The notes under the pieces were generated by a model. That model saw only the letters and a list, made by a program, of their open reading frames with translations. It was not told the origin of the DNA and ran no database searches. This document shows, piece by piece, positions 24,626-56,303 of a stretch of DNA of 64,000 bases. Numbering within the stretch: the first letter of the stretch is position 1; the number at the start of each line of letters is the position of its first letter. The DNA is taken from assembly GCF_004364325.1 (NCBI RefSeq), contig NZ_SOCP01000003.1:124001-188000 (forward strand). The letters are read 5' to 3'. The translations under genes and the position numbers were made by a program. The stretch is from Actinophytocola oryzae. GTDB lineage: Bacteria > Actinomycetota > Actinomycetes > Mycobacteriales > Pseudonocardiaceae.

Positions 24626-25665
24626 GCCCACGGCTCACCCGGCACCCGGACCGCCGCGTCCCGCTCGGCGGCCTCGTCGAAGGCCAGTGCGACGCGGTGG
24701 TCGTGGATGCCGTCGGCCAGCGGGTAGGGCTGCGGGCCGCCGTCCACCCACGCGGCCGTGTCCTCCAGCAGCGTCGCGATGGCGACCTCCTCGTCGTTCC
24801 ACCGCTGCCCCTGGTAGGGGTTGCGGTAGAGGACCTGGTCACCGAAGGAGATGTGGTCGGTGTCGAAGCCGTCCAGGTCCAGGTCGTAGCCGGTCTGGCG
24901 GCGCACGAGCTGTGTCGTGACGATGGTCCGGTCGGCGACCAGGCGCACGCACTCCTGGTCACGCAGCTCGCCGGACGTGCCCCGCACCAGCAGCCGCCGC
25001 ATGAGCAGCTGGTTGTGCCACTGGTTGTCGGTGAAGTCGTAGAGCCCGAACCCGCCGCCGTCGAACGCGAGCGTCGCGACCGTGGTCGTCGCGGGCCTGA
25101 CCTCGACGGGGTCGGTCCAGCCCGCCCGGTCGAGCGGGTCGGCCAGCGGCGCGGTCGTCCTGGTCGCCCGCACCTCGACGGGCCCGCGCCCGATGCCGAG
25201 GAACGTCCGGATCAGCGACACCGCGTGGTACTGGTGCGTCGAGGAGACGTCGACGCGGGTCGGCGTGCCGAGGACACCCGACCTGACGAGCGCGAGCCGT
25301 GCCGCGTGGGCGGGCATGCGGGTGTACTGCTCGGCGACCTGGACGAGCCCGCTCGCGCCGACCGCGTGCCACAGCCTGCGCAGGCCGTCGAGGTCGGGGG
25401 CGGGCGGTGTCTCGGCGAGCACCCGCAGGCCCCGCTCGACAAGCTCGGTGACGAGCGTCGGCGTGACTGCCCACGGCACCGACGTCACGACGAAGTCCGG
25501 CTTGCGCTCGAGACACTCGTCCAGCGACGTGTACACCGGCACCGGCAGCTCCCGCTGTCGCCGCCGCGAGACCACGCCGACACAGTCGAGGCCGGTCAGC
25601 GCCCCGCCGAGGCGCCAGAAGTACTCAGCACGCCAACCCGTACCGACTATCGCGAATTTCGTCAC
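24622..25665 (-). CDS. Gfo/Idh/MocA-family NAD(P)-dependent oxidoreductase
   Basis: 347 aa. The N-terminal Rossmann motif is FAIVGTGWRAEYFW, followed by the family strand VVTSVPWAVTPTLVTELVERGLRVLAETPPAP. The usual catalytic-site motif EKP is replaced by ETP, so the lysine normally near NAD(P)H and substrate is missing. The C-terminal beta-sheet domain (FDGGGFGLYDFTDNQWHNQLLMRRLLVRGTSGEL) is present. The GTG at 25665 is supported by a TACTTT box 6 nt upstream; a longer frame to 25758 has no family residues. Substrate unknown, probably a sugar or cyclitol. Confidence 0.87.
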   Translation of the reverse strand: MTKFAIVGTGWRAEYFWRLGGALTGLDCVGVVSRRRQRELPVPVYTSLDECLERKPDFVVTSVPWAVTPTLVTELVERGLRVLAETPPAPDLDGLRRLWHAVGASGLVQVAEQYTRMPAHAARLALVRSGVLGTPTRVDVSSTHQYHAVSLIRTFLGIGRGPVEVRATRTTAPLADPLDRAGWTDPVEVRPATTTVATLAFDGGGFGLYDFTDNQWHNQLLMRRLLVRGTSGELRDQECVRLVADRTIVTTQLVRRQTGYDLDLDGFDTDHISFGDQVLYRNPYQGQRWNDEEVAIATLLEDTAAWVDGGPQPYPLADGIHDHRVALAFDEAAERDAAVRVPGEPWA

Positions 25666-40390: not shown

Positions 40391-40443
40391 CACTGAAGGA
40401 CGCCTTCCTGACGCTGGACGTACTGAAGGCGTCCTTCATAACA
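40391..40443. repeat. Hairpin member of the 30-bp repeat family
   Basis: TGAAGGACGCCTTC (40394-40407) and its perfect reverse complement (40425-40438) form a 14-bp stem with a 17-nt loop containing GACGCTGGACG. It has the same end cap (CACTGAAGGAC) and core as the arrays at 7158 and 50009, reduced to about one unit. It lies directly after the rhamnosidase stop and may end that transcript. Confidence 0.75.
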
Positions 40444-40582: not shown

Positions 40583-41935
40583 ATGAAACTGGCAATGTTC
40601 GGCGGGAAGCCCGCGGTCAGACGAGAGTACCGGCGGCTGGAGTGGCCCGTCGTCACGGACGCCGACCGCGAGGCCGTGGCCCGCGTGCTCGACAGTCGCA
40701 AGTTCACGGTCGGCGCCAAGAACGAGGCCGAGATCCACGGCCTGGAGCGGGAATGGGCCGAGTTCTGCGGCACCCGCTACGCGGTGTCGGTCAACAGCGG
40801 GACGGTCGCGCTGGAGCTGGCGCTGGCCGCACTCGGTCTCCAGCCCGGCGACGAGGTCATCGTGCCCGCGCTGAGCTACGTCGCGACCGCGATGGCGCCC
40901 CTGTACTCGCTCGCGGTACCTGTGTTCGTCGACATCGACCCGGTGACCTTCAACATCGACGTCTCCAGGATCGAAGCCAAGATCACCAACCGCACGCGGG
41001 CGATCGTGCCGGTGCACCTGGGCGGTCTGCCCGCGGACATGGACGAGATCCTCGCGCTGGCAAGGAAGTACGACCTGCTCGTGGTCGAGGACGCCGTGCA
41101 GGCGCAGGGCGGCATCTACCGCGAGCGCACGTGCGGGTCGATCGGCCACGCGGGCGTGTTCAGCCTCAACGTGGAGAAGAGCATCCCGACCTGCGGCGAG
41201 GGCGGCCTGGTCGTCACCGACCGGGAGGACGTCGTCGAGCGCATCCGCAGCCTGCGCATCCTCGGCGAGGACCTGTCCACCGAGGAGCGGCTGTACGTCT
41301 CCGCGACGCGGGGCTCGAACCTCAAGCTCAGCTCGGTGCTCGCCGCGTTCACCCGCAGTCAGCTCGACCGTTTCTGGCAGTACCAGGAGAAACGGGACGA
41401 GAACACGCCCGTGTTCGTCGACCGCCTCGCGCAGCTGCCCGGCATCGTCGCGCCGACCGTCCCCGACGACCGCACGCACATGTGGCACATGCTGCGCTTC
41501 CGGTTCGACCCGACGGCAGCGGGCCTGGTCGGCGTCACCCCTGGCCGGTTCCGTGCCGCGCTGCGCCGCGCGCTGCTCGCCGAGGGCGTGCCCCTCACGC
41601 ACTACCAGATCATCCCGCTGCCCGGCCAACCCGTGTTCCAGGAGCAGAACGCCTTCGGGAACGGGCTGCCGTGGACGCTGCCCGGCACCAACCCGCAGCG
41701 CTACGACCTCGCCGACTACCCGGTGACGTGCCAGGTCATCGAGGACTCCCTGTGCCTGCGCAGGATGCACCTCAACCCCGAGGCCGGTCCCGCGCTCGCC
41801 GAGTACGCGACGGCGTTCGAACGCGTGTGGGACAACCTGCCCCGGATCGCCCGCTACGCCCGCTCCATGCCGTACGAGCCGCCGTGGCACGCCGTGCCCA
41901 ACGGCCCGCGCCTCGCCGAGCTGGACGCGGCATGA
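40583..41935 (+). CDS. DegT/DnrJ/EryC1-family aminotransferase of the AmCP cluster
   Basis: 450 aa PLP enzyme. The PLP lysine is K199 in FSLNVEKSIPTCGEGG, with the ring-binding Asp in VVEDAVQAQGG (D170) and the AHBA-synthase/sugar-aminotransferase start MKLAMFGGKPAVR. Members transaminate keto groups on sugars, cyclitols or carrier-bound ketones. First gene of a coupled operon with split transketolase and LysW/X/Y/Z/K homologues. By analogy with vazabitide A biosynthesis it would aminate the 6-keto group made by transketolase on the carrier-bound chain. The substrate is an inference. It ends ATGA with the next gene. Confidence 0.9.
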   Translation: MKLAMFGGKPAVRREYRRLEWPVVTDADREAVARVLDSRKFTVGAKNEAEIHGLEREWAEFCGTRYAVSVNSGTVALELALAALGLQPGDEVIVPALSYVATAMAPLYSLAVPVFVDIDPVTFNIDVSRIEAKITNRTRAIVPVHLGGLPADMDEILALARKYDLLVVEDAVQAQGGIYRERTCGSIGHAGVFSLNVEKSIPTCGEGGLVVTDREDVVERIRSLRILGEDLSTEERLYVSATRGSNLKLSSVLAAFTRSQLDRFWQYQEKRDENTPVFVDRLAQLPGIVAPTVPDDRTHMWHMLRFRFDPTAAGLVGVTPGRFRAALRRALLAEGVPLTHYQIIPLPGQPVFQEQNAFGNGLPWTLPGTNPQRYDLADYPVTCQVIEDSLCLRRMHLNPEAGPALAEYATAFERVWDNLPRIARYARSMPYEPPWHAVPNGPRLAELDAA

Positions 41936-42759
41936 CCACCGCGGCCGTCACCGACGACCTCGGGTTGCGGCGGGTCGCCCTCGCCGTGCGGGAACACGTG
42001 CTCGCGATCGGCGCGGGCCCGATCGGGACACACGTCGGCGGCGCGCTCTCCGCGACGGACATCCTCGTGGCGCTGTACCGGGAGGTGTTACGCGTGCGGC
42101 CGGACGAGCCACGCTGGCCAGGCCGCGACCACTTCATCCTCAGCAAGGGACACGCGTCCGCCGCCCTGTACGCGACGCTCGCCGAGTGCGGGTTCTTCCC
42201 CGTCGACGAGCTGGCCACCTACGGCCGCTCGGACGGCCGTCTGATGGCACACCCGACTCCGGCCGTGCCTGGCGTCGAGTTCGCCACGGGCTCGCTCGGC
42301 CACGGCCTCGCGCTCGGCGCGGGGCTCGGACTCGCGGCCAGGCGCGCGGGCAGGCCCAACCGGGTGTACGTGCTGATGGGTGACGGCGAGCTGCAGGAGG
42401 GCTCGGTGTGGGAGGCCGCGATGGCCGCCGCACACTACCGGCTGGACAACGTGACCGCGATCGTCGACCGGAACCGCCTGCAGATCAGCGGGTCCACGGA
42501 GGAGCGCATGGGCCTGGAGCCGCTGGCCGACAAGTGGCGGGCGTTCGGCTGGGCGGTGTCCGATGTGGACGGGCATGATTTCGCGCAGCTGGTGCCCGCG
42601 TTGCTGGCCCGCGCCGAGGGCAGGCCGACGGTCCTGCTCGCGGACACGGTGAAGGGCCGGGGTGTGCGCCACCTCCACCACCGCAAGCAGAGCCACTTCG
42701 CGAAGCTCGGACGGGCGGCCTACGAGCGGGCGCTCACGGCACTGCGGGGCGTCGCATGA
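41932..42759 (+). CDS. Transketolase, N-terminal (thiamine-diphosphate-binding) subunit
   Basis: 275 aa. Typical motifs of the PP half: HFILSKGHASAALY (about residue 67), GSLGHGLALGAGL, and the ThDP/Mg site MGDGELQEGSVWEA ending DRN (G150-D151-G152 to N181). Split transketolases like this occur in archaea and in secondary metabolism. Here it is coupled by ATGA overlaps to both the aminotransferase before and the C-terminal subunit after it. Proposed role: transfer of a two-carbon ketol unit to carrier-bound glutamate semialdehyde. Confidence 0.92.
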   Translation: MTTAAVTDDLGLRRVALAVREHVLAIGAGPIGTHVGGALSATDILVALYREVLRVRPDEPRWPGRDHFILSKGHASAALYATLAECGFFPVDELATYGRSDGRLMAHPTPAVPGVEFATGSLGHGLALGAGLGLAARRAGRPNRVYVLMGDGELQEGSVWEAAMAAAHYRLDNVTAIVDRNRLQISGSTEERMGLEPLADKWRAFGWAVSDVDGHDFAQLVPALLARAEGRPTVLLADTVKGRGVRHLHHRKQSHFAKLGRAAYERALTALRGVA

Positions 42760-43715
42760 CCAGCGCGGTCGTGGCGTCCGACCGGGCCGCCTACCGTGCC
42801 ACGCTGCTGGACCTGGCGCGGGCGGACTCGCGGATCTGGTGCCTGGACTCGGACATGGGCGGCCTGGAGAAGCAGTTCCAGGCCGAACTGCCCGACCAGT
42901 ACGTCGACGTTGGCATCGCCGAGGCGAACCTCATGTCGTTCTCCGCCGCGCTGGCGAGCACGGGACTGCTGCCGTTCGCCAACACCATGGCGGCGTTCGC
43001 GTCCGCGCGGGCGCTGGAACAGGTGAAGCTGGACATCGCCTACCACGACCTGCCGGTGCGGATCGTCGGGACGCACGCGGGGTTCTCGGCCGCGCACTAC
43101 GGCCCGACCCACCACGCGACGCAGGACCTCGCGACCATGCGGGCCCTGCCGAACATGACGGTGCTGACCCCCGCGGACGCCGGTGAGACCGCCAGTCTGG
43201 TGAAGGCGGCGGCATACCTGCCCGGCCCGGTCTACCTACGGCTTGGACGCAACGACATGGCGCCGGTGTACGACGTCGCGCCGGAGGTGACCATCGGCCG
43301 GGCCGCACGGCTGCGCCCCGGCAACGACGTCACGCTCGTGGCGGCGGGTGCGCTGCCGGTGCGTTTCGCACTCGACGCGGCGGCGACGCTCGCGGCGCGG
43401 GGCATCGCGGCGCGGGTGCTGAACATGCACACGATCAAGCCGCTCGACGTGCCCGCGCTGGTCGCCGCGGCGGCCGAGACCGCGGGGGTGGTGACGGTCG
43501 AGGACCACTCGGTGTTCGGCGGCCTCGGCGGCGCGGTCGCGGAGGCACTGTCCGAACACCACCCGACGACCGTGCGGCGAGTGGGCGTCGCCGACGTGTT
43601 CTGCCACCGCCCGGGAACGCACGCCGAGCAGCTCGCGGCGGCGGGGGTGTCGCCTGCCCACATCGTGGCGGCGGCGCTCACGGTAACGGAAACTATCAAG
43701 GAGGAACGGGAATGA
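42756..43715 (+). CDS. Transketolase, C-terminal (pyrimidine-binding) subunit
   Basis: 319 aa. The PYR half with the catalytic cofactor-activating Glu (about E56) in DVGIAEANLMSFSAALA, and the C-terminal transketolase domain beginning GNDVTLVAAGALPVRFALDAAATL. Forms the active heteromer with the 275-aa subunit. The stop overlaps the carrier protein start as ATGA, and AAGGAGG about 7 nt before that ATG gives the carrier gene a strong ribosome site. Confidence 0.92.
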   Translation: MTSAVVASDRAAYRATLLDLARADSRIWCLDSDMGGLEKQFQAELPDQYVDVGIAEANLMSFSAALASTGLLPFANTMAAFASARALEQVKLDIAYHDLPVRIVGTHAGFSAAHYGPTHHATQDLATMRALPNMTVLTPADAGETASLVKAAAYLPGPVYLRLGRNDMAPVYDVAPEVTIGRAARLRPGNDVTLVAAGALPVRFALDAAATLAARGIAARVLNMHTIKPLDVPALVAAAAETAGVVTVEDHSVFGGLGGAVAEALSEHHPTTVRRVGVADVFCHRPGTHAEQLAAAGVSPAHIVAAALTVTETIKEERE

Positions 43716-43885
43716 CCACCGCGGTGAGCAACTGCCCAGACTGCACGGAGGCCGTGCCTGCCGGTGACCTGCGTGTGACGCAGGTCCTGGTGTGCCCCGG
43801 CTGCGAGGCCGAGCTGGAGGTGATCAGCGTCGACCCGGTCGAGTACGCGCTGGCGCCGGACATCGAGGAAGACTTCGGGGAGTGA
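43712..43885 (+). CDS. lysW: Amino-group carrier protein (LysW-like, AmCP)
   Basis: 57 aa acidic carrier. Two zinc-knuckle pairs, C8-x2-C11 (NCPDC) and C28-x2-C31 (VCPGC), are those of LysW. The C-terminus is IEEDFGE, matching the conserved EDWGE tail with Trp replaced by Phe; in LysW the gamma-carboxyl of the terminal Glu forms the isopeptide bond with the amino group of the substrate. Lysine/arginine pathway intermediates are normally carried this way in Thermus and archaea. Here the neighbours point to secondary metabolism. The gene is short enough to be missed by length filters. Confidence 0.93.
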   Translation: MTTAVSNCPDCTEAVPAGDLRVTQVLVCPGCEAELEVISVDPVEYALAPDIEEDFGE

Positions 43886-43886
43886 C

Positions 43887-44777
43887 GTGCGCGCCAACAC
43901 GGGTCGGGACGGTCGCCTGGCCGTCCTGACCACCCGCGCCCGCCTCGAGGAGCGGCTGATCTTCGCCGCCTTCGACCGACGGGGTATCCCCTACGTGCAG
44001 GTGGACGACCGCACGCTGATCCACCACCTCGGCGCGCCGGGCGTCACCTACCGCGGCGTCCTGAACCGGATCATGTCCCACACTCGCAGCGTCTACGCGA
44101 CGAGGCTCTTCGAGGCGACCGGCCACCGGGTGTTCAACCCCAGCACCGTGGTCGACGTGTGCGGCGACAAGATCCTCACCTCGCTGGCCCTGACGCGGGC
44201 CGGCCTCCCCACGCCCGCGACGACCGTGGCGATCACGCCCGACGCGGCACTGGCGGCCATCGAGCAGGTGGGCTACCCGGCCGTGATCAAGCCGGCCGTA
44301 GGCTCGTGGGGCCGCCTGCTGTCCAAGGTGAACGACCGGGACGCGGCCGAGACCCTCATAGAGCACAAGCAGTCGCTGCGGTCGCCGGTCCACAACGTCT
44401 ACTACATCCAGGAGTACGTCGACAAGCCCGACCGCGACATCCGGGTGATCGTCCTCGGTGACGAGCCGGTCGCCGCGGTCTACCGGCGCTCCGACCACTG
44501 GATCACCAACACGGCACGCGGCGCGACCACGGCCGCGTGCACGTTGACCGATGAGCTGCGCTCCCTCGCGCTGCGGGCGGCCGGGGCCGTCGGCGGCGGC
44601 ATGCTGGCCGTCGACCTGCTGGAGCGCTCGACGGGTGAGCTGCTCGTCACGGAGGTCAACCACACCATGGAGTTCCACGGCCTCGCGGCCGTCGCGGACG
44701 TGGACCTCGCCGACCTGATCGTCACACACGTGGACCGCGCACTGAGCACAGTGGACACACTGGAGCGTGCGGCATGA
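43887..44777 (+). CDS. lysX: LysX-like ATP-grasp ligase (loads amino acid on AmCP)
   Basis: 296 aa, GTG start 1 bp after the carrier gene. ATP-grasp fold of the RimK/LysX family: CGDKILTSLALTRAGLPTPAT, YPAVIKPAVGSWGRLLSKVNDRD, YYIQEYVDKPDRDIRVIVLG, and the metal/substrate motif LLVTEVNHTMEFHGLA, which is LysX-like. It would use ATP to join the alpha-amino group of glutamate (or a related acid) to the carrier's C-terminal Glu. Substrate choice between glutamate and aminoadipate is inferred as glutamate from the transketolase context. Confidence 0.92.
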   Translation: MRANTGRDGRLAVLTTRARLEERLIFAAFDRRGIPYVQVDDRTLIHHLGAPGVTYRGVLNRIMSHTRSVYATRLFEATGHRVFNPSTVVDVCGDKILTSLALTRAGLPTPATTVAITPDAALAAIEQVGYPAVIKPAVGSWGRLLSKVNDRDAAETLIEHKQSLRSPVHNVYYIQEYVDKPDRDIRVIVLGDEPVAAVYRRSDHWITNTARGATTAACTLTDELRSLALRAAGAVGGGMLAVDLLERSTGELLVTEVNHTMEFHGLAAVADVDLADLIVTHVDRALSTVDTLERAA

Positions 44778-45796
44778 GGGCGACGGTCGTCGGCGGCAGC
44801 GGCTACATCGGCGGCGAGCTGGTCCGACTCCTGCTGGGTCACCCGCACGTTGAGCTGGTGACCGTCACGTCGGACCGGTACGCGGGCCGCCCGTTGCGTG
44901 CCGCACACCCGAACCTGCGTGGCCGCACGGCACTGTCGTTCATACCGGCGACCGAGGCCGGCGAGTCGGACGTGGTGTTCCTCGCCGTTCCGCACGGCGC
45001 GGCAGCGAAGGAGATCGACCACTGGTCGACCCGCGCACCGAGGATCGTCGACCTGAGCGCGGACTTCCGCCTGCGGGACGACGCACTGCGCGAGCGCCAT
45101 TACCCCGGTGCCGCACCGGATCCGGGCTGGCTGGCGAAGTTCCGCACGGGTATCCCGGAGCTGAACCGGGAGAACCTGCGTGGCGCCACCCACATCTCGG
45201 TGGCGGGCTGCATGGCCAACGCCGCGATCCTCGCACTGCACCCCCTCGCCGCGGCAGGCCTGGTCGCGGGCACGGTCCTGGTCGACGCCCGCACCGGCTC
45301 GTCCGGCGGCGGTCGCACCCCCGACGAGGGCAGCCACCACCCGGAACGCAGCGGCGTGCTGCGGATGGCGAAACCCCACGGCCACCGGCACATCGCGGAG
45401 ATCACCCAGGCGTGCGGGCTCGACGTGCACATGTCCGTCACGGCCGTGCCGTCGGTGCGCGGGGTGCAGGTGGTCAGCCACGTCACGCTGGCGAAGCCAC
45501 TGTCCGAACGCGATCTCTGGGCCGTGTACCGCGACGCCTACCGCGACGAGCCGTTCGTGCGGCTGGTCCGCGAGCGGTCGGCACTGCACCGCATGCCGGA
45601 GCCGAAACTGCTGTCCGGCACCAACTTCTGCGACATCGGCCTCGCGCTGACCCCCGGCACCGAGCACCTCGTCGTGGTGTCGGCCATCGACAACCTGGTC
45701 AAGGGAGGTGCGGGAAATGCCGTCCAGTGCCTCAACATCGCGACAGGCTGGGACGAGACGACCGGTCTCGAGTTCACCGGCCTGCACCCGCTCTGA
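44774..45796 (+). CDS. lysY: LysY/ArgC-like acyl-phosphate reductase
   Basis: 340 aa. N-terminal NADP Rossmann motif VVGGSGYIGGELVRLL, and the catalytic Cys at C146 in ISVAGCMANAAIL, where ArgC and LysY form the thioacyl enzyme. The C-terminal HGHRHIAEI supplies the catalytic His region. It reduces the carrier-bound gamma-glutamyl phosphate to the semialdehyde. Start overlaps the LysX stop as ATGA. ArgC of arginine biosynthesis is the alternative, but an operon with carrier, LysX, LysK and transketolase argues against it. Confidence 0.92.
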   Translation: MRATVVGGSGYIGGELVRLLLGHPHVELVTVTSDRYAGRPLRAAHPNLRGRTALSFIPATEAGESDVVFLAVPHGAAAKEIDHWSTRAPRIVDLSADFRLRDDALRERHYPGAAPDPGWLAKFRTGIPELNRENLRGATHISVAGCMANAAILALHPLAAAGLVAGTVLVDARTGSSGGGRTPDEGSHHPERSGVLRMAKPHGHRHIAEITQACGLDVHMSVTAVPSVRGVQVVSHVTLAKPLSERDLWAVYRDAYRDEPFVRLVRERSALHRMPEPKLLSGTNFCDIGLALTPGTEHLVVVSAIDNLVKGGAGNAVQCLNIATGWDETTGLEFTGLHPL

Positions 45797-45803
45797 GCGT
45801 TAC

Positions 45804-46619
45804 GTGGTGAAGCTGGGCGGCGCGCTCGACGACGAGATGACCCGTGCCTGCGCGGACGTCCGCACTCTGGTGTCCGGGGGCGCCGAGGTGGTGGTGGTCC
45901 ACGGCGGCGGCGCGGCGGCGGACCGCGTGGGCACGGAACTCGGCCGCCCGACCCGCCACCTGACCTCCCGCGACGGCCGCCGCAGCCGCTACACGGACGC
46001 CGCGGCGCTGGACACGCTGATGCTGGGCATCCTGGGCCGTGTCAAGCCCACGATCGTGACGGCACTGGCCTCGCTGGGGGTCCGGGCCGTGGGACTGTCC
46101 GGACTGGACGGTGGCATGGTGACGGCCACCCGCAACCGCGCGTCGCGGGCGATCCTGGACGGCATGGAGGTCATCGTGCGAGACGACCTGTCCGGCCGTC
46201 TGTCCGATGTGGATGCGTCCCTGCCGAACACGTTGCTGGCGGCTGGTTTCGTCCCGGTGATCTCCCCGCCGGCCCTGAGCACGGACGGCCCGCTGAACGT
46301 CGACGCGGACCGGCTGGCCGCCGCGCTGGCGGTGGCACTGTCGGCGGACACGCTGGTCGTGCTGTCGAACGTCCCCGGTCTGCTGCGGGACAGGCACGAT
46401 CCCGCGTCGCTGATCACGTCGGTGCCGGTGGACGCGCCGGAGGAGTACCTGGCCCTCGCGGAGGGCCGCATGAAAGTCAAGCTCAGGGCCGCGGTCGAGG
46501 CACGCAGGGCAGGCGTCGGCACGGTGGTCCTCGCCGACGGCCGCACCGACTCCCCCGTCCTGACCGCGACCGGCACCCGGTTCGTCACCCGAGAGGAACA
46601 CCATGCGCGAGCGAGCTGA
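45804..46619 (+). CDS. lysZ: LysZ/ArgB-like amino acid kinase
   Basis: About 271 aa from a GTG at 45804 (GTG 45807 is adjacent). Kinase motifs: VVKLGGALDD at the start, EVVVVHGGGAAAD, and the C-terminal GRMKVKLRAAVEARRAGVGTVVLADGR typical of ArgB/LysZ. It would phosphorylate the side-chain carboxylate of the carrier-bound glutamate. No good ribosome site precedes the start, which lies 7 bp after the LysY stop, so it probably depends on coupling. It overlaps the LysK gene by 17 bp. Confidence 0.9.
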   Translation: MVKLGGALDDEMTRACADVRTLVSGGAEVVVVHGGGAAADRVGTELGRPTRHLTSRDGRRSRYTDAAALDTLMLGILGRVKPTIVTALASLGVRAVGLSGLDGGMVTATRNRASRAILDGMEVIVRDDLSGRLSDVDASLPNTLLAAGFVPVISPPALSTDGPLNVDADRLAAALAVALSADTLVVLSNVPGLLRDRHDPASLITSVPVDAPEEYLALAEGRMKVKLRAAVEARRAGVGTVVLADGRTDSPVLTATGTRFVTREEHHARAS

Positions 46620-47643
46620 GGACCTCCTGTACCGCATGGTGGCCATCGACTCGGTGTCGGGCAACGAGAATCGCCTGGCCGACTTCCTGGTCGAGGAGCT
46701 GCGCGAGTGGGGCTTCACGACCCATCTGGACGAGGTGGGCAACGCGATAGCCCGACGCGGCGACCCGAACGCGCCCATGGTGATGCTGACCGGCCACATG
46801 GACACCGTCCCCGGCGGCCCACCGGTGCGCCGCGACGGCGACCTGCTCCACGGCCGGGGCGCGGTCGACGCGAAAGGCCCGCTGGCGACGATGATCTGCG
46901 CTGCGGCACAGGCCGATGTGGACGGTGTGCAGTACGTGGTGGCCGGAGTGGTGGAGGAGGAGACCTACGGCAAGGGCGCGACGCACCTGGCCGAGTGCTT
47001 CCGCCCGGCGGTGGGGTTCGTCGGCGAGCCCAACGGCTGGGCTGGTGTCGGCATCGGCTACAAGGGCCGGATCATGTTGCGCTACAGCGTGTCCCGCCCA
47101 GCTGTGCACACGGCGAGCCCGGAGGAGAAGGCGTCCGAGGCGGCGGTGGCGTTCTGGCACGACATCCTCACGTACTGCAGATCCGTGACCACGAGCGAGA
47201 AGGCGTTCGACCGCCCCATCCCCACACTGAACGAGATGACGGGCGACATCGAGCAGGCGCGACTGGTCGTCTCCGTGCGGACGCCCCCGGGCTTCGACGT
47301 CGAGGCCTTCGAGTCCTTCCTGGCGACGGCGACCCGGGACGGCGACCTGGTCGTCGACGACCGCACCCCGGGCGTCAGGGTCGACCACCGAGGCGCCGCC
47401 GTGCGGGCACTGTGTGCGGGCATCCGGGCCCACGGCGCCCGCCCGACGCTGAAGCTCAAGACCGGCACGGCCGACCTGAACATCGTCGAACCACGCTGGC
47501 AGATCCCGATGGCGGTGTACGGCCCCGGCGACTCGGCACTGGACCACACGGACAACGAGCACATCTCCCTGACCGAGTACGCAACCGCGATCGAGGTCCT
47601 ACGCGGCGCGCTCGACCACCTCGCCACCGACCTGCGCGGATAG
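46603..47643 (+). CDS. lysK: LysK-like M20 metallopeptidase (releases product from AmCP)
   Basis: 346 aa zinc peptidase. Metal ligands are visible: TGHMDTVPG (H65, D67), GRGAVDAKGPLA (bridging D89), VVEEETYGKG (general base E119/E120), FVGEPNG, and HTDNEHISL near the C-terminus. In the lysine pathway LysK hydrolyses the isopeptide bond to free the product from LysW. Start 46603 follows AGAGGA and lies within the end of the kinase gene. The last 45 bp overlap the end of the convergent MFS gene. Confidence 0.92.
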   Translation: MRERAEDLLYRMVAIDSVSGNENRLADFLVEELREWGFTTHLDEVGNAIARRGDPNAPMVMLTGHMDTVPGGPPVRRDGDLLHGRGAVDAKGPLATMICAAAQADVDGVQYVVAGVVEEETYGKGATHLAECFRPAVGFVGEPNGWAGVGIGYKGRIMLRYSVSRPAVHTASPEEKASEAAVAFWHDILTYCRSVTTSEKAFDRPIPTLNEMTGDIEQARLVVSVRTPPGFDVEAFESFLATATRDGDLVVDDRTPGVRVDHRGAAVRALCAGIRAHGARPTLKLKTGTADLNIVEPRWQIPMAVYGPGDSALDHTDNEHISLTEYATAIEVLRGALDHLATDLRG

Positions 47644-48825
47644 CACTGTCACGGTGGCCGAGGGGAAGTGCCGCCGCCAACGACCGGACAGAGCGGCGAG
47701 AACCGCGACGAGGGCGCCGGCGAGCGCGCCGAGCAGCAGGAAGGAGACCCGCCCCGTCACCTCGTACAACACGACCCCGACCACCGGCCCGAGCACGTTC
47801 CCGACGTCGGAGACGAGCCCGAACAACCCGAACGCGGCACCCTGGCTGGCGGCGGCCGACTTCAGCTCCACGATCCCCCGACGCGCGGTCAGGAACAGCA
47901 CGGCATACCCCACCATCACGACCAGGAAGGCCCCGGCGACAGGCAGAACGGCCGAACTGGCGGCCATCCCGGCAAGCCCGCCACCAAGCAGGAAGAGCCC
48001 AGCCGCGACGAGCGGCACGAGTCCGAAGCGTTCGGCGAACCGGCCGAGCGCCCACATGCTGACGGCCGAGGTGGCCAGACCCACCACGAAGACGATGGAG
48101 ATGGCACCGTGCGCCGATCCGCCGGCCGCGTCACTCAGGTAGAGCGGCAGGACCGGCTCGAGCGAGGTGTACACGAGGTGTGTGAACAGGTCGAGCAGGC
48201 CGAGCACGAGCACCCACACCCACCACTCGCGTGCGGCGGATCCGGTCTGCCCGGTGGTGTCGGCTTCCTCCACCGGCATGTCCGGAATGGCCCGCAGCAA
48301 CCCGAAGGCGGTCAGCGAGGTGAGGACGGCGCCGACGAGGAACAGTGCCTCGAGCCCGAGCGGCGCGGCGACACCCGCCACCAGCGGCCCGAGCAGGAAC
48401 CCGGCGACGGCGGCGGACCCGAAGTTCCCCATCATGCGACTGGAGGAGATCTCGTAACGCCTGCAGAGCGCGGACATCCCGGCGTAGAGCGCCGGCGTGA
48501 CGAGCCCTTCCCCGATCCCCCAGACGAACCGCCCGACGAGCAGCGTCACGGGATCGCCGGCGAACGCCGTGAGCACGATCCCCACCGCGGCGACGTTCAG
48601 TGCCACGCACGCCACCGCTCGTGGCCGCCAACGGTCCACCCACGCACCGCCGACGGGCTGGAACAACGCCTTGGCCGCGGCGAAGAGCGCGAACATCAAC
48701 GCGATGGTGACCGGCCCGGCGCCGACCCGCGTCTCGAGGTCGGGCACGAACGGGATCAGCACGGTGTACGAGGCGTTGACACTGATGACCGCGAGGAGGA
48801 GCAGCAGGGCGCGCCGCTGTCCCAT
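47599..48825 (-). CDS. MFS exporter next to the AmCP cluster
   Basis: 408 aa, 12 predicted membrane helices. Motif A-like loop GGAWVDRWRPRAV after helix 2, a motif B/C-like stretch GRFVWGIGEGLVTPALYAG, and a central loop near residue 190 (DMPVEEADTTGQTGS). Similar to DHA1-type drug and amino-acid exporters. It overlaps the preceding GNAT/FemAB-like gene by one base (TGATG) and its 3' end overlaps lysK tail-to-tail by 45 bp. Proposed to export the product of the carrier-protein pathway. Confidence 0.88.
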   Translation of the reverse strand: MGQRRALLLLLAVISVNASYTVLIPFVPDLETRVGAGPVTIALMFALFAAAKALFQPVGGAWVDRWRPRAVACVALNVAAVGIVLTAFAGDPVTLLVGRFVWGIGEGLVTPALYAGMSALCRRYEISSSRMMGNFGSAAVAGFLLGPLVAGVAAPLGLEALFLVGAVLTSLTAFGLLRAIPDMPVEEADTTGQTGSAAREWWVWVLVLGLLDLFTHLVYTSLEPVLPLYLSDAAGGSAHGAISIVFVVGLATSAVSMWALGRFAERFGLVPLVAAGLFLLGGGLAGMAASSAVLPVAGAFLVVMVGYAVLFLTARRGIVELKSAAASQGAAFGLFGLVSDVGNVLGPVVGVVLYEVTGRVSFLLLGALAGALVAVLAALSGRWRRHFPSATVTVLSAQVGGEVVERAA

Positions 48826-49877
48826 CAGGCGGCCTGGATGTAGGCGTGCAGGGTGGCGTGCATGCCGTTGAGCGCGGTGGCCAGCTCGGGACGGGCCGTG
48901 GGCGCGTAGACCATGGCCCACAGCTCGGTGGCGTCGAGGCCGTGGCGTTCCTTGAAGCGGTAGTTGTCGCGGCCCCACTCGATGCGCCGCATGCCGTTGT
49001 CGTAGGCCCACTGCGTCGCGCGGTACATGAGCGCGATGTAGGTGCTGTACTCCCGCATGCTCGCGTAGTCGACGCCGCCGCACATGTAGGTGACCTCGTC
49101 ACCGCGCCGGAACCCGAAGAACACGCCGAGGAGCCGGTCACCGGCCTGTGCCGCGACGAGCACGGCGCCGGGGATGTCGAGCATCCCGTGCAGGGCCGCC
49201 TCGTCGAAGAGGGCGGGCCACTCGTTCTTGTCACTGGTGTCGACGGTGAGCGGGAACGCGTCGGCGACGAGGTGGTGCGCGGTGGGGCCGTCGAGGACGC
49301 GCACCCGGAGGCCACGTTCCCCTGCGCGGCGCAGCCGTCGCTCGACGTCCCGCCGGATCTTGTTGTCGAGGCGGTAGAGGTGGTCCCCGAAGGTCCCGAC
49401 GACGTCGATGCCGTAGGTCCGTTCCAGGTGGACGGTCCCGACGGGCGGCCCGGCGACGTCGAGCCAGCTGTCCACCCCGGCACTGGTCAGGTTGGGGACG
49501 ACGAGCACCTCGGCCGCGCCGCGCCTGACCCAGTCCATGCCGGTGGCGTAGGCGCCCTCGACGAGTCTGCGGTCGATGGACCCGCGCTTGCCGTACATGG
49601 AGTAGGGCGAGCCGGCGAAGACGACCGGGTTGCCGAACCGTCCGACCAGGCCACACTGCAGTTCGTAGCCGAACCAGAATGGTGAGAGGGTGGTCTCGTA
49701 GAGGGGAAGGACCTCGTCCGCGGCGGAGACGTACGCGTGCCGCGTGCGCTGCTCGATCCCGATCCGCTCCCAGCCGCGCAACCACGCGGAGGAGTCGTAG
49801 AGGCAGCTGGCCCGTACCTCGCCGGGCACCTCGTCGACCAGCACCCACTCACCCGAACTCGCACCGGTGACCGCCAT
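48825..49877 (-). CDS. FemAB/GNAT-like transferase (Acetyltransf_6-type)
   Basis: 350 aa. The first half (LYDSSAWLRGWERIGIEQRTRHAYVSA) and the second half with DNKIRRDVERRLRRAGERGLRVRV and VLVAAQAGDRLLGVFFGFRRGDEVTYMCGGVD ... EWGRDNYRFKERHGL form the double-GNAT arrangement of FemAB/BioF2-like proteins. Such enzymes transfer amino acids from aminoacyl-tRNA in peptidoglycan and in some antibiotic pathways, or acylate amines. Coupled to the MFS exporter. ATG 49877 chosen; a GTG about 10 codons upstream is possible. The link to the AmCP product is inferred from position. Confidence 0.75.
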   Translation of the reverse strand: MAVTGASSGEWVLVDEVPGEVRASCLYDSSAWLRGWERIGIEQRTRHAYVSAADEVLPLYETTLSPFWFGYELQCGLVGRFGNPVVFAGSPYSMYGKRGSIDRRLVEGAYATGMDWVRRGAAEVLVVPNLTSAGVDSWLDVAGPPVGTVHLERTYGIDVVGTFGDHLYRLDNKIRRDVERRLRRAGERGLRVRVLDGPTAHHLVADAFPLTVDTSDKNEWPALFDEAALHGMLDIPGAVLVAAQAGDRLLGVFFGFRRGDEVTYMCGGVDYASMREYSTYIALMYRATQWAYDNGMRRIEWGRDNYRFKERHGLDATELWAMVYAPTARPELATALNGMHATLHAYIQAA

Positions 49878-50008
49878 GCCCAAACCCCGTCCGCGTGGAA
49901 GCAACACCCACCAGCGAACGTAACTCGCACCGGGTAACCAGCTCTCCACTATCGACTGGACCCACACTGGAGCGCCCCCGGCCCCATGCCCCGCCCCGCC
50001 CCGCCCCG
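49878..50008. other. Intergenic segment upstream of the FemAB-like gene
   Basis: Should carry the promoter of the FemAB-like/MFS pair. A CCCCGCC-rich run (49979-50008) abuts the repeat array. No gene or clear promoter box was found. Confidence 0.4.
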
Positions 50009-50245
50009 ATGCACTGAAAGACGCCTTCGTAACGTCCAGCGTTAGGAAGGCGTCCTTCAGTGCACCCGGCGTCACGAAGGCTCCCATCAGTGCGCCCAGC
50101 GTTACGAAGGCGTCCTTCAGTGCGCCCAGCGTTACGAAGGCGTCCTTCAGTACGCCCAGCGTAACGAAGGCTCCCATCAGTGCGCCCAGCGTTACGAAGG
50201 CGTCCTTCAGTACGCCCAACGTTAGGAAGGCGTCCTTCAGTGCAT
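50009..50245. repeat. 30-bp repeat array, about seven units with inverted cap
   Basis: Direct units start at 50041, 50071, 50101, 50131, 50161, 50191 and 50221 (GTTACGAAGGCGTCCTTCAG type, with variants GTTAGGAAGG, GTCACGAAGG and CTCCCATCAG). The left edge TGCACTGAAAGACGCCTTC (50010-50028) is the inverse of the right edge ending 50244, with one mismatch, so the whole array can fold back on itself. Same family as the elements at 7158, 21471 and 40391. Frames open on the minus strand through it encode only periodic peptides. Confidence 0.92.
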
Positions 50246-50263
50246 CGGGGTGGGCCGGTGGGG

Positions 50264-51559
50264 TTACAGGGTTACTCGCAGTGCAGGCGGCAGCCGGTCG
50301 GCGTGGGCGCGGACCATCTCGTTGCACAGGTCCCAGATCCGCTCGACCGGCAGGGCACCCGACGTCGCCGGGTCCACCATCGCGGCCTGGCGGATGTGGC
50401 GAGGCTCCTCGTCGACGGCCGCGCGGACCACCAGGTCGTTCATGCTCAGGTAGTTGCGGTTCAACGCGGCCAGCTGTGGCGGCAGGTCCCCGATCCTCGT
50501 CGGCCGCACCCCCGACCCGTCCACGAGGCACGGCACCTCGACCGTCCCGCCCGACGGCAGGTTCGAGATCAACCCCCGGTTGGGCACGTTCCCGTACACG
50601 ACCCTCGGTGTCCCCGTCGCGATGCTGTGGATCACCTGCGGGGCGTACTCCATCGTCGGCTCGACCTCCAGCGGCTCACCTGCCGCCAGCGCCGCCCGGG
50701 TCTGCTCGTAGCTCGCGACGTTCTCGTCCGTGATCCCCAGGTAATCACCCACGGGGATGCGCAGGCGCGCGATCTCCGAGTCGTGGTGCAGGTACCACGG
50801 CACGTACTCCGACGAGTGTTCGCTGGTCTCCGTCGGGTAGTAGCCGAGGCGGCGGTACATGTCGACACGCACCCGCCGCCGCAGCTCCGGGTCGGCCTCG
50901 ACCAACGCGTCCAGCGCGTCGTACAGGTTCACGCCGTCGCGAGTCCACGACAGCACCCACGCCTGGTGGTTGACCCCCGCCGCAACGTACGTGACCTCCT
51001 CGAACGGCACGTCCACCAGCTCCGACAGGCCACGCATCGTCCAGTACACCGAATGGCACAGGCCGACCACGCGGGTCAGCCCGGTCACCTCCGTCAGGTA
51101 CTGCACGTTCATCGCCATCGGGTTGGTGTAGTTCAGCAGCCACGCCGACGGGCACACCTCCGCGATGTCGGCACCCAGTGCCCTGAGCAGCGGGAACGTG
51201 CGCAGCGCACGGAAGATGCCGCCGATCCCCAGTGTGTCGCCGATGGTCTGGCGCACCCCGAACCTGGCCGGGACGTCGAAGTCGGTCCTGGTGGTCTCCG
51301 CCATGCCGACCTGCACGATGTTGATGACGAAGTCGGCCCCCGCCAACGCCTCCCGCCGGTCGGCGTGCGCGGTCACGGTCGGCGACATCCCCCGTGACGT
51401 CCCGATGTACCGCGCCGCTGCCTCCGAAGTGGACAGTCGCTCCCGGTCGATGTCGTGCAGCGCGATGTGCACGTCCCGCAGCTCCGGGAAGGCGAACAGG
51501 TCCGCCAGCAGACCCTGCGTGAACACGACGCTGCCCGCGCCGACGAAAGTGATCTTCAT
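50264..51559 (-). CDS. Glycoside hydrolase family 4 (NAD+/Mn-dependent alpha-glycosidase)
   Basis: 431 aa cytoplasmic enzyme. N-terminal NAD-binding MKITFVGAGSVVFTQGLLADL, then NYTNPMAMNVQYL (the NPM motif) and GLCHSVYW, with the Cys and later His (AAGVNHQAW) binding the metal. The pattern is closest to the alpha-galactosidase (melibiase) branch of GH4. The mechanism oxidises C3 of the sugar with bound NAD+. Last gene of the operon, starting ATGA within the kinase stop. With a secreted GH114 enzyme in the same operon it may release galactosamine or galactose from imported oligosaccharides. Confidence 0.9.
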   Translation of the reverse strand: MKITFVGAGSVVFTQGLLADLFAFPELRDVHIALHDIDRERLSTSEAAARYIGTSRGMSPTVTAHADRREALAGADFVINIVQVGMAETTRTDFDVPARFGVRQTIGDTLGIGGIFRALRTFPLLRALGADIAEVCPSAWLLNYTNPMAMNVQYLTEVTGLTRVVGLCHSVYWTMRGLSELVDVPFEEVTYVAAGVNHQAWVLSWTRDGVNLYDALDALVEADPELRRRVRVDMYRRLGYYPTETSEHSSEYVPWYLHHDSEIARLRIPVGDYLGITDENVASYEQTRAALAAGEPLEVEPTMEYAPQVIHSIATGTPRVVYGNVPNRGLISNLPSGGTVEVPCLVDGSGVRPTRIGDLPPQLAALNRNYLSMNDLVVRAAVDEEPRHIRQAAMVDPATSGALPVERIWDLCNEMVRAHADRLPPALRVTL

Positions 51560-55518: not shown

Positions 55519-56303
55519 GTCTGGTAAACGTAGTCGGAACTGTCCGGTGTGGATACATCGACATCCCGGCGGACTACGCTGAGTGTGCTGCCGAAGTCGG
55601 CGCACGCCGCGCGCAGACCTCGTGCGGAGTACTCGATGATGATCACGTTGTTGCCGAAGGCATCCACGTAGTCACCACATTCCGTCCACTCGGCACACTC
55701 CTCGGCGACCGCGAAGTCGAGGCCGTTGGCCACGCGGTTCCCAGCCAGCTCAACAGTGTTCTTCTGTGCGATGGCGAGCCCGGCGCCGTGTGCGTGTGCG
55801 GACAACAGCTTGATGTAGGCCTGGGCCTGGTTCGCAGTCAGCAAGTTGTCGGGTGCACGAGTGAACGTGTCGAAGTTGTCCGGCTCGACCGCCCGGAAGC
55901 CCTTGGCCGCGCACTGGTCGATCCACGCGTCGACCTTCGCCGCGATGCGTTCGCGCTTGGCGGCGGTGCGGATGTCGAGCATCGCCTCGCCCCAGTCCTC
56001 GTCGTAGACGATGTCGCCGCGCGAGTCGCGGAGCAGGAGGTCACCCCACTCGCCCTCGGTGTCCGGCTGGGCCTGGAACGCGTTGACGTAACAGATGTTG
56101 TAGAGCCCGGCCGCCGGTGCGTCGCCGTGGTCGCGGCTCACGACCCGGACGCCGGACGGCGGGGTGTAGGCGCCGCCGATCTGGTAGTCGAACCTGGCGT
56201 GCGCGGGCGGCAGCGAGACCGCGGCGGAGGCGTCGGCGGTCACGAACAACGCCGCGACGACGGCACCGACCAGGGGGAGAACGCGAGCGCGAGTAGTCAT
56301 CAT
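55512..56303 (-). CDS. Secreted GH114 endo-alpha-1,4-polygalactosaminidase
   Basis: 263 aa from ATG 56303, with GGAG nine bases upstream; signal peptide residues 1-27 (VLPLVGAVVAALFVTADASA). The GH114 TIM-barrel landmarks are FDYQIGGAYTPPSGVRVVSRD, GLYNICYVNAFQAQP, DEDWGEAMLDIR, GFRAVEPDNFDTF (likely catalytic acidic residues) and AIAQKNTVEL. Family members cut alpha-1,4-linked galactosamine chains, for example in fungal galactosaminogalactan. First gene of an operon with sugar importer, kinase and GH4. Some longer in-frame starts exist (56318, 56468) but lack ribosome sites. Confidence 0.88.
   Translation of the reverse strand: MMTTRARVLPLVGAVVAALFVTADASAAVSLPPAHARFDYQIGGAYTPPSGVRVVSRDHGDAPAAGLYNICYVNAFQAQPDTEGEWGDLLLRDSRGDIVYDEDWGEAMLDIRTAAKRERIAAKVDAWIDQCAAKGFRAVEPDNFDTFTRAPDNLLTANQAQAYIKLLSAHAHGAGLAIAQKNTVELAGNRVANGLDFAVAEECAEWTECGDYVDAFGNNVIIIEYSARGLRAACADFGSTLSVVRRDVDVSTPDSSDYVYQTC

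Follow-up and report, generated by a model that had tools for sequence, protein, structure and literature searches.

The locus

We analysed a 64,000-nucleotide window of the Actinophytocola oryzae genome (contig NZ_SOCP01000003.1, positions 124,001 to 188,000), which contains a compact plus-strand operon (40583-47643) for an amino-group carrier protein (AmCP) system with a split transketolase. This eight-gene operon, described in the initial annotation of the window, is real: location and strand agree, all eight genes are intact open frames, and all fall into the expected families in Pfam and NCBIfam. The initial annotation let the cluster stop at the last of these genes, a LysK-type hydrolase, and saw no peptide assembly. 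Both statements have to be revised. Two further minus-strand genes (47599-49877) belong to the cluster by conservation, and one of them, here called FEM, encodes a predicted aminoacyl-tRNA-dependent peptide ligase. We propose, with a probability of about 55%, that the ten-gene cluster at 40583-49877 builds a DADH-type amino acid, that is 2,6-diamino-5,7-dihydroxyheptanoic acid (DADH) or a close relative, on the carrier, and that FEM and the adjoining transporter aminoacylate it from tRNA and export the peptide without a nonribosomal peptide synthetase (NRPS). The genes are as follows.

40583-41935, + strand: AT, DegT/DnrJ-family pyridoxal-phosphate aminotransferase, predicted to aminate the ketone after the transketolase step (PF01041, 284 bits)
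41932-42759, + strand: TKN, N half of a transketolase with the thiamine diphosphate domain (PF00456, 145 bits, run from 41935)
42756-43715, + strand: TKC, pyrimidine-binding and C-terminal half of the transketolase (PF02779 and PF02780 above cut-off)
43712-43885, + strand: LysW-like amino-group carrier protein of 57 amino acids with four Cys and the C-terminus EEDFGE (PF21344, 35.7 bits, cut-off 27)
43887-44777, + strand: ATP-grasp ligase of the LysX type, predicted to charge the carrier with the starter (TIGR02144, 307.8 bits, cut-off 275.6)
44774-45796, + strand: LysY/ArgC-type semialdehyde dehydrogenase (TIGR01850, 339 bits, cut-off 233.6)
45804-46619, + strand: LysZ-type amino-acid kinase (NF010659 [LysW]-aminoadipate kinase, 257 bits, cut-off 223, run from 45708)
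46603-47643, + strand: M20 hydrolase of the LysK type, predicted to cleave the product off the carrier (TIGR01902, 273 bits, cut-off 163)
47599-48825, - strand: major facilitator superfamily (MFS) transporter, predicted exporter (PF07690), adjoining FEM in 8/8 genomes that bear the AmCP core
48825-49877, - strand: FEM, 350-amino-acid tandem-GNAT protein (PF13480), predicted aminoacyl-tRNA-dependent peptide ligase resembling FemX and Sba18

The genes were said to be nearly all overlapping, which applies to five of the seven operon junctions: AT/TKN, TKN/TKC, TKC/carrier and LysX/LysY overlap by four bases each and LysZ/LysK by 17, while the carrier and LysX genes are separated by 1 base and the LysY and LysZ genes by 7. 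TKN starts at ATG 41932 through a four-base ATGA overlap with AT; the start of LysZ is most likely GTG 45804, though its open reading frame opens at 45708. The MFS gene and the 3' end of lysK have 45 bases in common, and a single base belongs to both the MFS start codon and the FEM stop codon.

The zinc-ribbon carrier ending in Glu, together with LysX, LysZ and LysY in the same operon, identifies an amino-group carrier system, and the two-subunit transketolase with a DegT aminotransferase alongside these genes corresponds to a DADH module. AT shows 56% identity to a protein from Streptomyces sp. SANK 60404, which we take to be the vazabitide producer, and its Lys199 is invariant in 27 aligned sequences. 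In TKN the GDGE and N of what is presumably the thiamine diphosphate motif are visible. LysX retains GSWGR, and its best solved relative is 3vpd, which we take to be Thermus LysX. Some models set limits to these assignments. The carrier reaches 38.2 bits with NCBIfam lysW, below the cut-off of 53.2, the hydrolase reaches 354.3 bits with the stricter NF003367 [LysW]-lysine hydrolase model (cut-off 363), and TIGR01850 is an ArgC model by which LysY is indistinguishable from ArgC.

Repeats were seen at both cluster ends. Upstream of FEM, at 49994-50273, lies a 30-base repeat run, found as seven overlapping 100-base copies 30 apart with a unit like CCTTCAGTGCGCCCAGCGTTACGAAGGCGT; an inverted repeat at 40394-40438, at the opposite end, is related to it.

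Conservation of the operon and of the carrier tail

AT was searched in 390 genomes of the family, in 392 genomes of a Streptomyces-type genus and in an even draw of 396 genomes of the phylum; for each genome, searches on this scale assigned scores to the four or five best candidates, and counts given here come from whole-genome searches. The family yielded 24 AT matches in 20 genomes, five of them at 84-100% identity (window included) and 19 at 42-54%. An AT match was present in 37 of the Streptomyces-type genomes, in three at 81-84% and in 34 at 45-56%, and the phylum draw gave two matches beyond the window's own genome. In the two genome samples the close-kin AT proteins, at 81-92% identity, are thus set apart from the other matches at 42-56%. 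A clean identity split overall was rejected: the protein database also holds metagenome AT sequences at 55-79%. Some of these (P0041, P0045, P0053, P0057, a Herpetosiphonaceae sequence) take an intermediate place in the AT tree, with the close-kin clade on one side and all other sequences on the other. The ten close-kin sequences lie on one side of a branch with support 93/84, just below the support mark of the tool; nested together with P0041 they reach a marked 100/97, separate from the SANK 60404 enzyme.

The order AT, TKN, TKC, carrier, LysX, LysY, LysZ, LysK on one strand was found in 8/8 close-kin loci (window included) and in 0/31 other AmCP loci, the nearest being G1134 and L015, in which the carrier gene alone is displaced. 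Because order and strand are fixed in this way, the operon arrangement is far beyond chance. The 31 loci are a chosen part of the matches: context was fetched for 11 of the 19 other-type family matches, 10 of the 34 from the Streptomyces-type genus, one of the two from the phylum draw and 9 of at least 80 loci from a contig scan. Among the loci listed by that scan a single one was close kin. L010 and L012 (aminotransferase only) were left out, L016, L018-L020, L022-L025, L028, L029 and L031-L088 stand outside the counts, and L009 and G040 denote one locus. Two of the 31, G137 and G110b, have aminotransferase and transketolase matches only. Distant AmCP-transketolase clusters with the order LysX, AT, LysY, LysZ, LysK, TKN, TKC were seen in L027 (Nocardiopsis xinjiangensis) and L030 (Paenibacillus sp. 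1011MAR3C5), with no NRPS match within 21 kb of either.

The carrier tail is a second mark of the close-kin loci. It reads EDFGE in all eight, as in 14/14 homologues from a protein search that reached close relatives only, and EDWGE in 25/25 carriers from 24 other AmCP loci. According to the available part of PMC10433800, EDWGE is recognised by the GSWGR motif of LysX/ArgX.

FEM and its association with the operon

FEM is present in 8/8 genomes bearing the AmCP core and in none of four core-less Actinophytocola genomes. The three Streptomyces-type genomes with FEM, among 392, are exactly the three with the core, and here the FEM-MFS pair is divergent and lies on the other side of the operon. 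Ten of the 390 family genomes contain FEM. The core accompanies it in five of them; the other five lack the core and hold relatives of 53-56% identity. Nine contigs recur in both the AT and the FEM protein lists, which agrees with co-occurrence, the contigs being matched by length only. In A. algeriensis the pair follows the operon after an EamA transporter gene that is absent from the window, and a colinear stretch of matching DNA shared by the two Actinophytocola species covers window positions 40589-49836 and ends at AT and at FEM. Entirely different flanks in A. algeriensis were rejected, as there are scattered matches beyond the colinear block; gene-sized ones lie at 55542-56221 (75%) and at 24628-25664 (80%, inverted), next to short weak ones. 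Near the cores of Umezawaea, Saccharothrix and Lentzea no FEM was found within 57-100 kb; the whole-genome search locates it some 70 kb away from the core, or else on a different contig.

This distribution bears on the idea that FEM acts as an aminoacyltransferase on peptidoglycan or lipids and sits beside the operon by chance. Its structural relatives do include FemX, FemA and MprF. However, FEM co-occurs with the core, is missing from nearly all relatives searched and stands beside the core in two bacterial families, and the colinear match stops at it, so that a chance neighbour of this kind is very improbable.

No NCBIfam family covers FEM. Against solved structures phmmer gave no match and a profile search returned two unrelated weak hits only; the fold was therefore predicted instead. 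The prediction is a confident one of a tandem-GNAT fold, and the best matches of the model are aminoacyl-tRNA-dependent transferases (Sbb17/Sba18, FemX, MprF), the top 22 hits all being aminoacyl-tRNA users. FEM also carries an N-x-x-F-K motif, with K309 and F308 in 45/45 and N305 in 44/45 aligned sequences. Its spacing equals that of N325/F328/K329 in DhpH-C, an equivalence by motif rather than by superposition.

Further evidence comes from sister FEM loci (about 55% FEM identity), five of which were inspected, namely those of four genomes and an additional copy in G075, with G183 left out (L233/L234 (G077), L235/L236 (G075), L237 (G070), L238 (G064), L239 (G073)). All five have a SARP-like regulator, a methyltransferase and a class-I lysyl-tRNA-synthetase-like gene near FEM. 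The synthetase-like gene matches PF01921 at 1e-72 in the G077 genes, on which Pfam was run, and the others follow from 84-97% mutual identity; it shows a P-S-G-x-P-H-x-G-T stretch and KISK in both copies inspected and scores 305 of 648 bits with the lysine--tRNA ligase model. A synthetase paralogue in the neighbourhood of a FemX-like gene is an indirect sign that the donor is an aminoacyl-tRNA. An MFS-hydrolase-sized fusion also occurs in 5/5 sister loci, and a pyridoxal-phosphate decarboxylase, a desaturase-type oxygenase, a Cys/Met-type pyridoxal-phosphate enzyme and a peptidase C26 in 4/5 (absent from the G064 tile). No AmCP gene was labelled near FEM in the sister loci.

The initial annotation ended the pathway with a free amino acid released by LysK. 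In a variant of this idea, the MFS protein exports a free amino acid of the DADH type, or a simple derivative of it, and FEM acts as a coenzyme A-dependent acyltransferase that protects the producer by N-acylation. The structural hits to aminoacyl-tRNA users, the conserved N-x-x-F-K motif and the synthetase-like gene of the sister loci all speak against such an enzyme, and we consider this variant rather unlikely. Because FEM is a predicted peptide ligase that belongs to the cluster, a small peptide is the more likely end product.

Azabicycle-type clusters and contig C16

The claim that the surroundings lack NRPS genes was borne out: 104 kb around the operon contain no adenylation-domain match. 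The same is true of 40-104 kb around the five stand-alone loci, and at least one adenylation domain was found in 24/31 other loci. Polyketide synthases were likewise not found when ten flanking genes in the interval 30582-56318 were scanned with Pfam, the sole check made for them. AziU3, which is common in other AmCP clusters and was identified via PDB 7wuw (1.6e-54), is present in 17/31 other loci (fetched tiles); it was found in none of the eight close-kin loci and nowhere in the 104 kb around the operon. An azabicycle type for the window cluster was rejected, as AziU3 and NRPS matches are both absent. One AziU2-like match about 57 kb upstream (L131:3965-4489, 32%) falls in the frame of a secreted protein and is unconvincing; it hints at a possible domain common to AziU2 and secreted proteins.

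Each of the Umezawaea, Saccharothrix and Lentzea loci contains six to eight adenylation domains, the core lying inside a large NRPS cluster. This cluster is conserved (L116-L118 and neighbouring tiles, with Saccharothrix syringae as the Saccharothrix species) and also contains an acetolactate-synthase-like enzyme, a TauD oxygenase, and thioester reductase and tryptophan-dioxygenase-like genes.

The genome has a second AmCP cluster on contig C16 (L113, L114; 172001-206000), which is of the azabicycle type, with all eight gene types, NRPS domains and an EDWGE carrier. About 20 kb from this AmCP set lies an AziU3 homologue (C16:161500-162510, L245), 62% identical to that of G353 and the sole match in the genome. 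It could be argued from this NRPS setting that the window operon is an auxiliary DADH supply for the C16 cluster. However, C16 owns an aminotransferase, a transketolase pair, a carrier and a release enzyme, the carrier tails differ, and among the scored candidates a second aminotransferase match was not found in the other four stand-alone genomes; we regard a supply role as most improbable. The EDFGE tail might insulate the window carrier from the EDWGE carrier in the same cell.

Starter amino acid and primary metabolism

Glutamate had been proposed as the starter. Two observations fit it. The LysX residues after EF are H-G-L, closer to K-G-F of Sulfolobus ArgX than to K-N-S of 3vpd, and no homocitrate synthase scores above the cut-off in the genome (best 185 of 413.55 bits) with a model that gave some match in all 14 control genomes, two of them above the cut-off. 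Asn-Thr versus Gly-Phe is reported as the LysX/ArgX substrate switch in the available part of PMC10433800, and H-G-L would occupy this position.

Other signals favour alpha-aminoadipate. Residue 205 of LysX is Ile (HWITNTARG) in 8/8 close-kin loci, like that of the Thermus and Thermococcus lysine enzymes 3vpd and 5k2m. In the LysX proteins compared from 24 of the 31 other loci it is Arg in 23/24, as in Sulfolobus ArgX 3vpb, and Lys in one (L030). Ile205 may bear on the choice of starter and keeps alpha-aminoadipate open, which would give a product one carbon longer than DADH. In the same direction point the better score of LysX with 3vpd (254 bits) than with 3vpb (156 bits) and the LysX_arch and [LysW]-aminoadipate kinase models, both above cut-off. 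Aminoadipate is also obtainable from lysine breakdown. Set against H-G-L and the homocitrate synthase result, an aminoadipate starter appears unlikely, and we lean towards glutamate at about five to one. Of the earlier claim of a DADH-like product, the evidence supports an AmCP operon equipped with the DADH-route transketolase and aminotransferase, the starter residues being in conflict; an amino acid of the DADH type is probable rather than proven.

Archaeal and Thermus homologues of LysW, LysX, LysY, LysZ and LysK make ornithine or lysine according to the available part of PMC10433800, and the operon could by analogy serve primary arginine or lysine synthesis. Elsewhere in the genome, however, there are an ArgJ match, followed at a distance of about 80 bases by the start of an amino-acid-kinase match (C17), and also LysA (C4), and because of these the operon is unlikely to be the only arginine or lysine route, the case that the initial annotation had named as refuting its reading. 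The core is moreover sporadic, occurring in 5/390 family genomes and 3/392 genomes of the other genus. We know of no role for transketolase and DegT genes in LysW-type arginine or lysine pathways. A primary role was rejected and is hardly credible.

Proposed pathway and comparison with known systems

Each chemical step of the pathway is inferred, as are the starter, the amino acid donated from tRNA and the nitrogen that accepts it. LysX would attach glutamate, or less likely alpha-aminoadipate, via its amino group to the last glutamate of the carrier. LysZ and LysY would convert the side-chain carboxylate to an aldehyde, to which the two-subunit transketolase would add a two-carbon ketol. The DegT enzyme would then aminate the ketone and LysK would free the amino acid from the carrier. 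FEM would form an amide bond to one amine of this amino acid with an aminoacyl-tRNA as donor, and the MFS protein would export the product. That a carrier pathway in this way hands a non-proteinogenic diamino acid to a FemX-type ligase for an NRPS-free peptide, with EDFGE as insulation from an EDWGE pathway, we judge to have an even chance of being correct.

The closest known systems are the AmCP pathways of vazabitide A and s56-p1, in which DADH is made on Vzb22 and which have the same LysW-like carrier, LysX, LysY, LysZ and LysK homologues, two-subunit transketolase and DegT aminotransferase. In contrast to them, the window cluster has a fixed compact order, an EDFGE carrier tail and the FEM-MFS pair, and no NRPS domain or AziU3 match in 104 kb. 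Products of the vazabitide A/s56-p1 type are described as nonribosomal peptide products in the available sections of PMC9303977. The azinomycin azabicycle pathway (AziC1-C7, AziU3/U2) likewise uses transketolase and aminotransferase steps towards a DADH-type amino acid; the accessible part of PMC9570651 gives N-acetyl glutamate as its start (AziC2) and a carrier route as a possibility. The close-kin loci differ from it in their lack of AziU3 matches.

The LysW/ArgW pathways of Thermus and archaea have the carrier, ligase, kinase, reductase and hydrolase families in common with the window operon, in which transketolase and DegT replace their direct transamination step. They differ in the carrier tail, EDWGE rather than EDFGE, and in the window's genome arginine and lysine genes lie elsewhere. 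With the FemX-type natural-product transferases (Sba18/Sbb17, Orf11 of BD-12, PacB, VlmA, DhpH-C, DhpK) FEM shares the predicted tandem-GNAT fold, the N-x-x-F-K motif and the position in a biosynthetic cluster with a transporter, although it has no detectable sequence similarity to the solved members. The acceptors of the reviewed examples are aminosugars, phosphonates, hydroxylamines or nucleoside peptides, and the words 'LysW' and 'carrier protein' are absent from the text of the review of these enzymes.

Implications

In the sections available from the open literature that was searched, the AmCP route to DADH appears only in NRPS or azabicycle settings, and the named products of carrier-made DADH are NRPS peptides (PMC9303977). 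Nowhere in that literature was the route joined to aminoacyl-tRNA ligation; primary papers of the field may mention such a link. The combination of a carrier-made diamino acid with FemX-type tRNA-dependent ligation would be a biosynthetic logic without precedent in the literature searched.

If our proposal is true, ten genes on about 9.3 kb would constitute a route to new small peptides that is easily moved to a host and tested. Close FEM relatives are predicted to mark such clusters, and EDFGE would be a sequence tag for finding them. With two carriers in one genome, A. oryzae would also offer a chance to test whether carrier tails separate parallel pathways.

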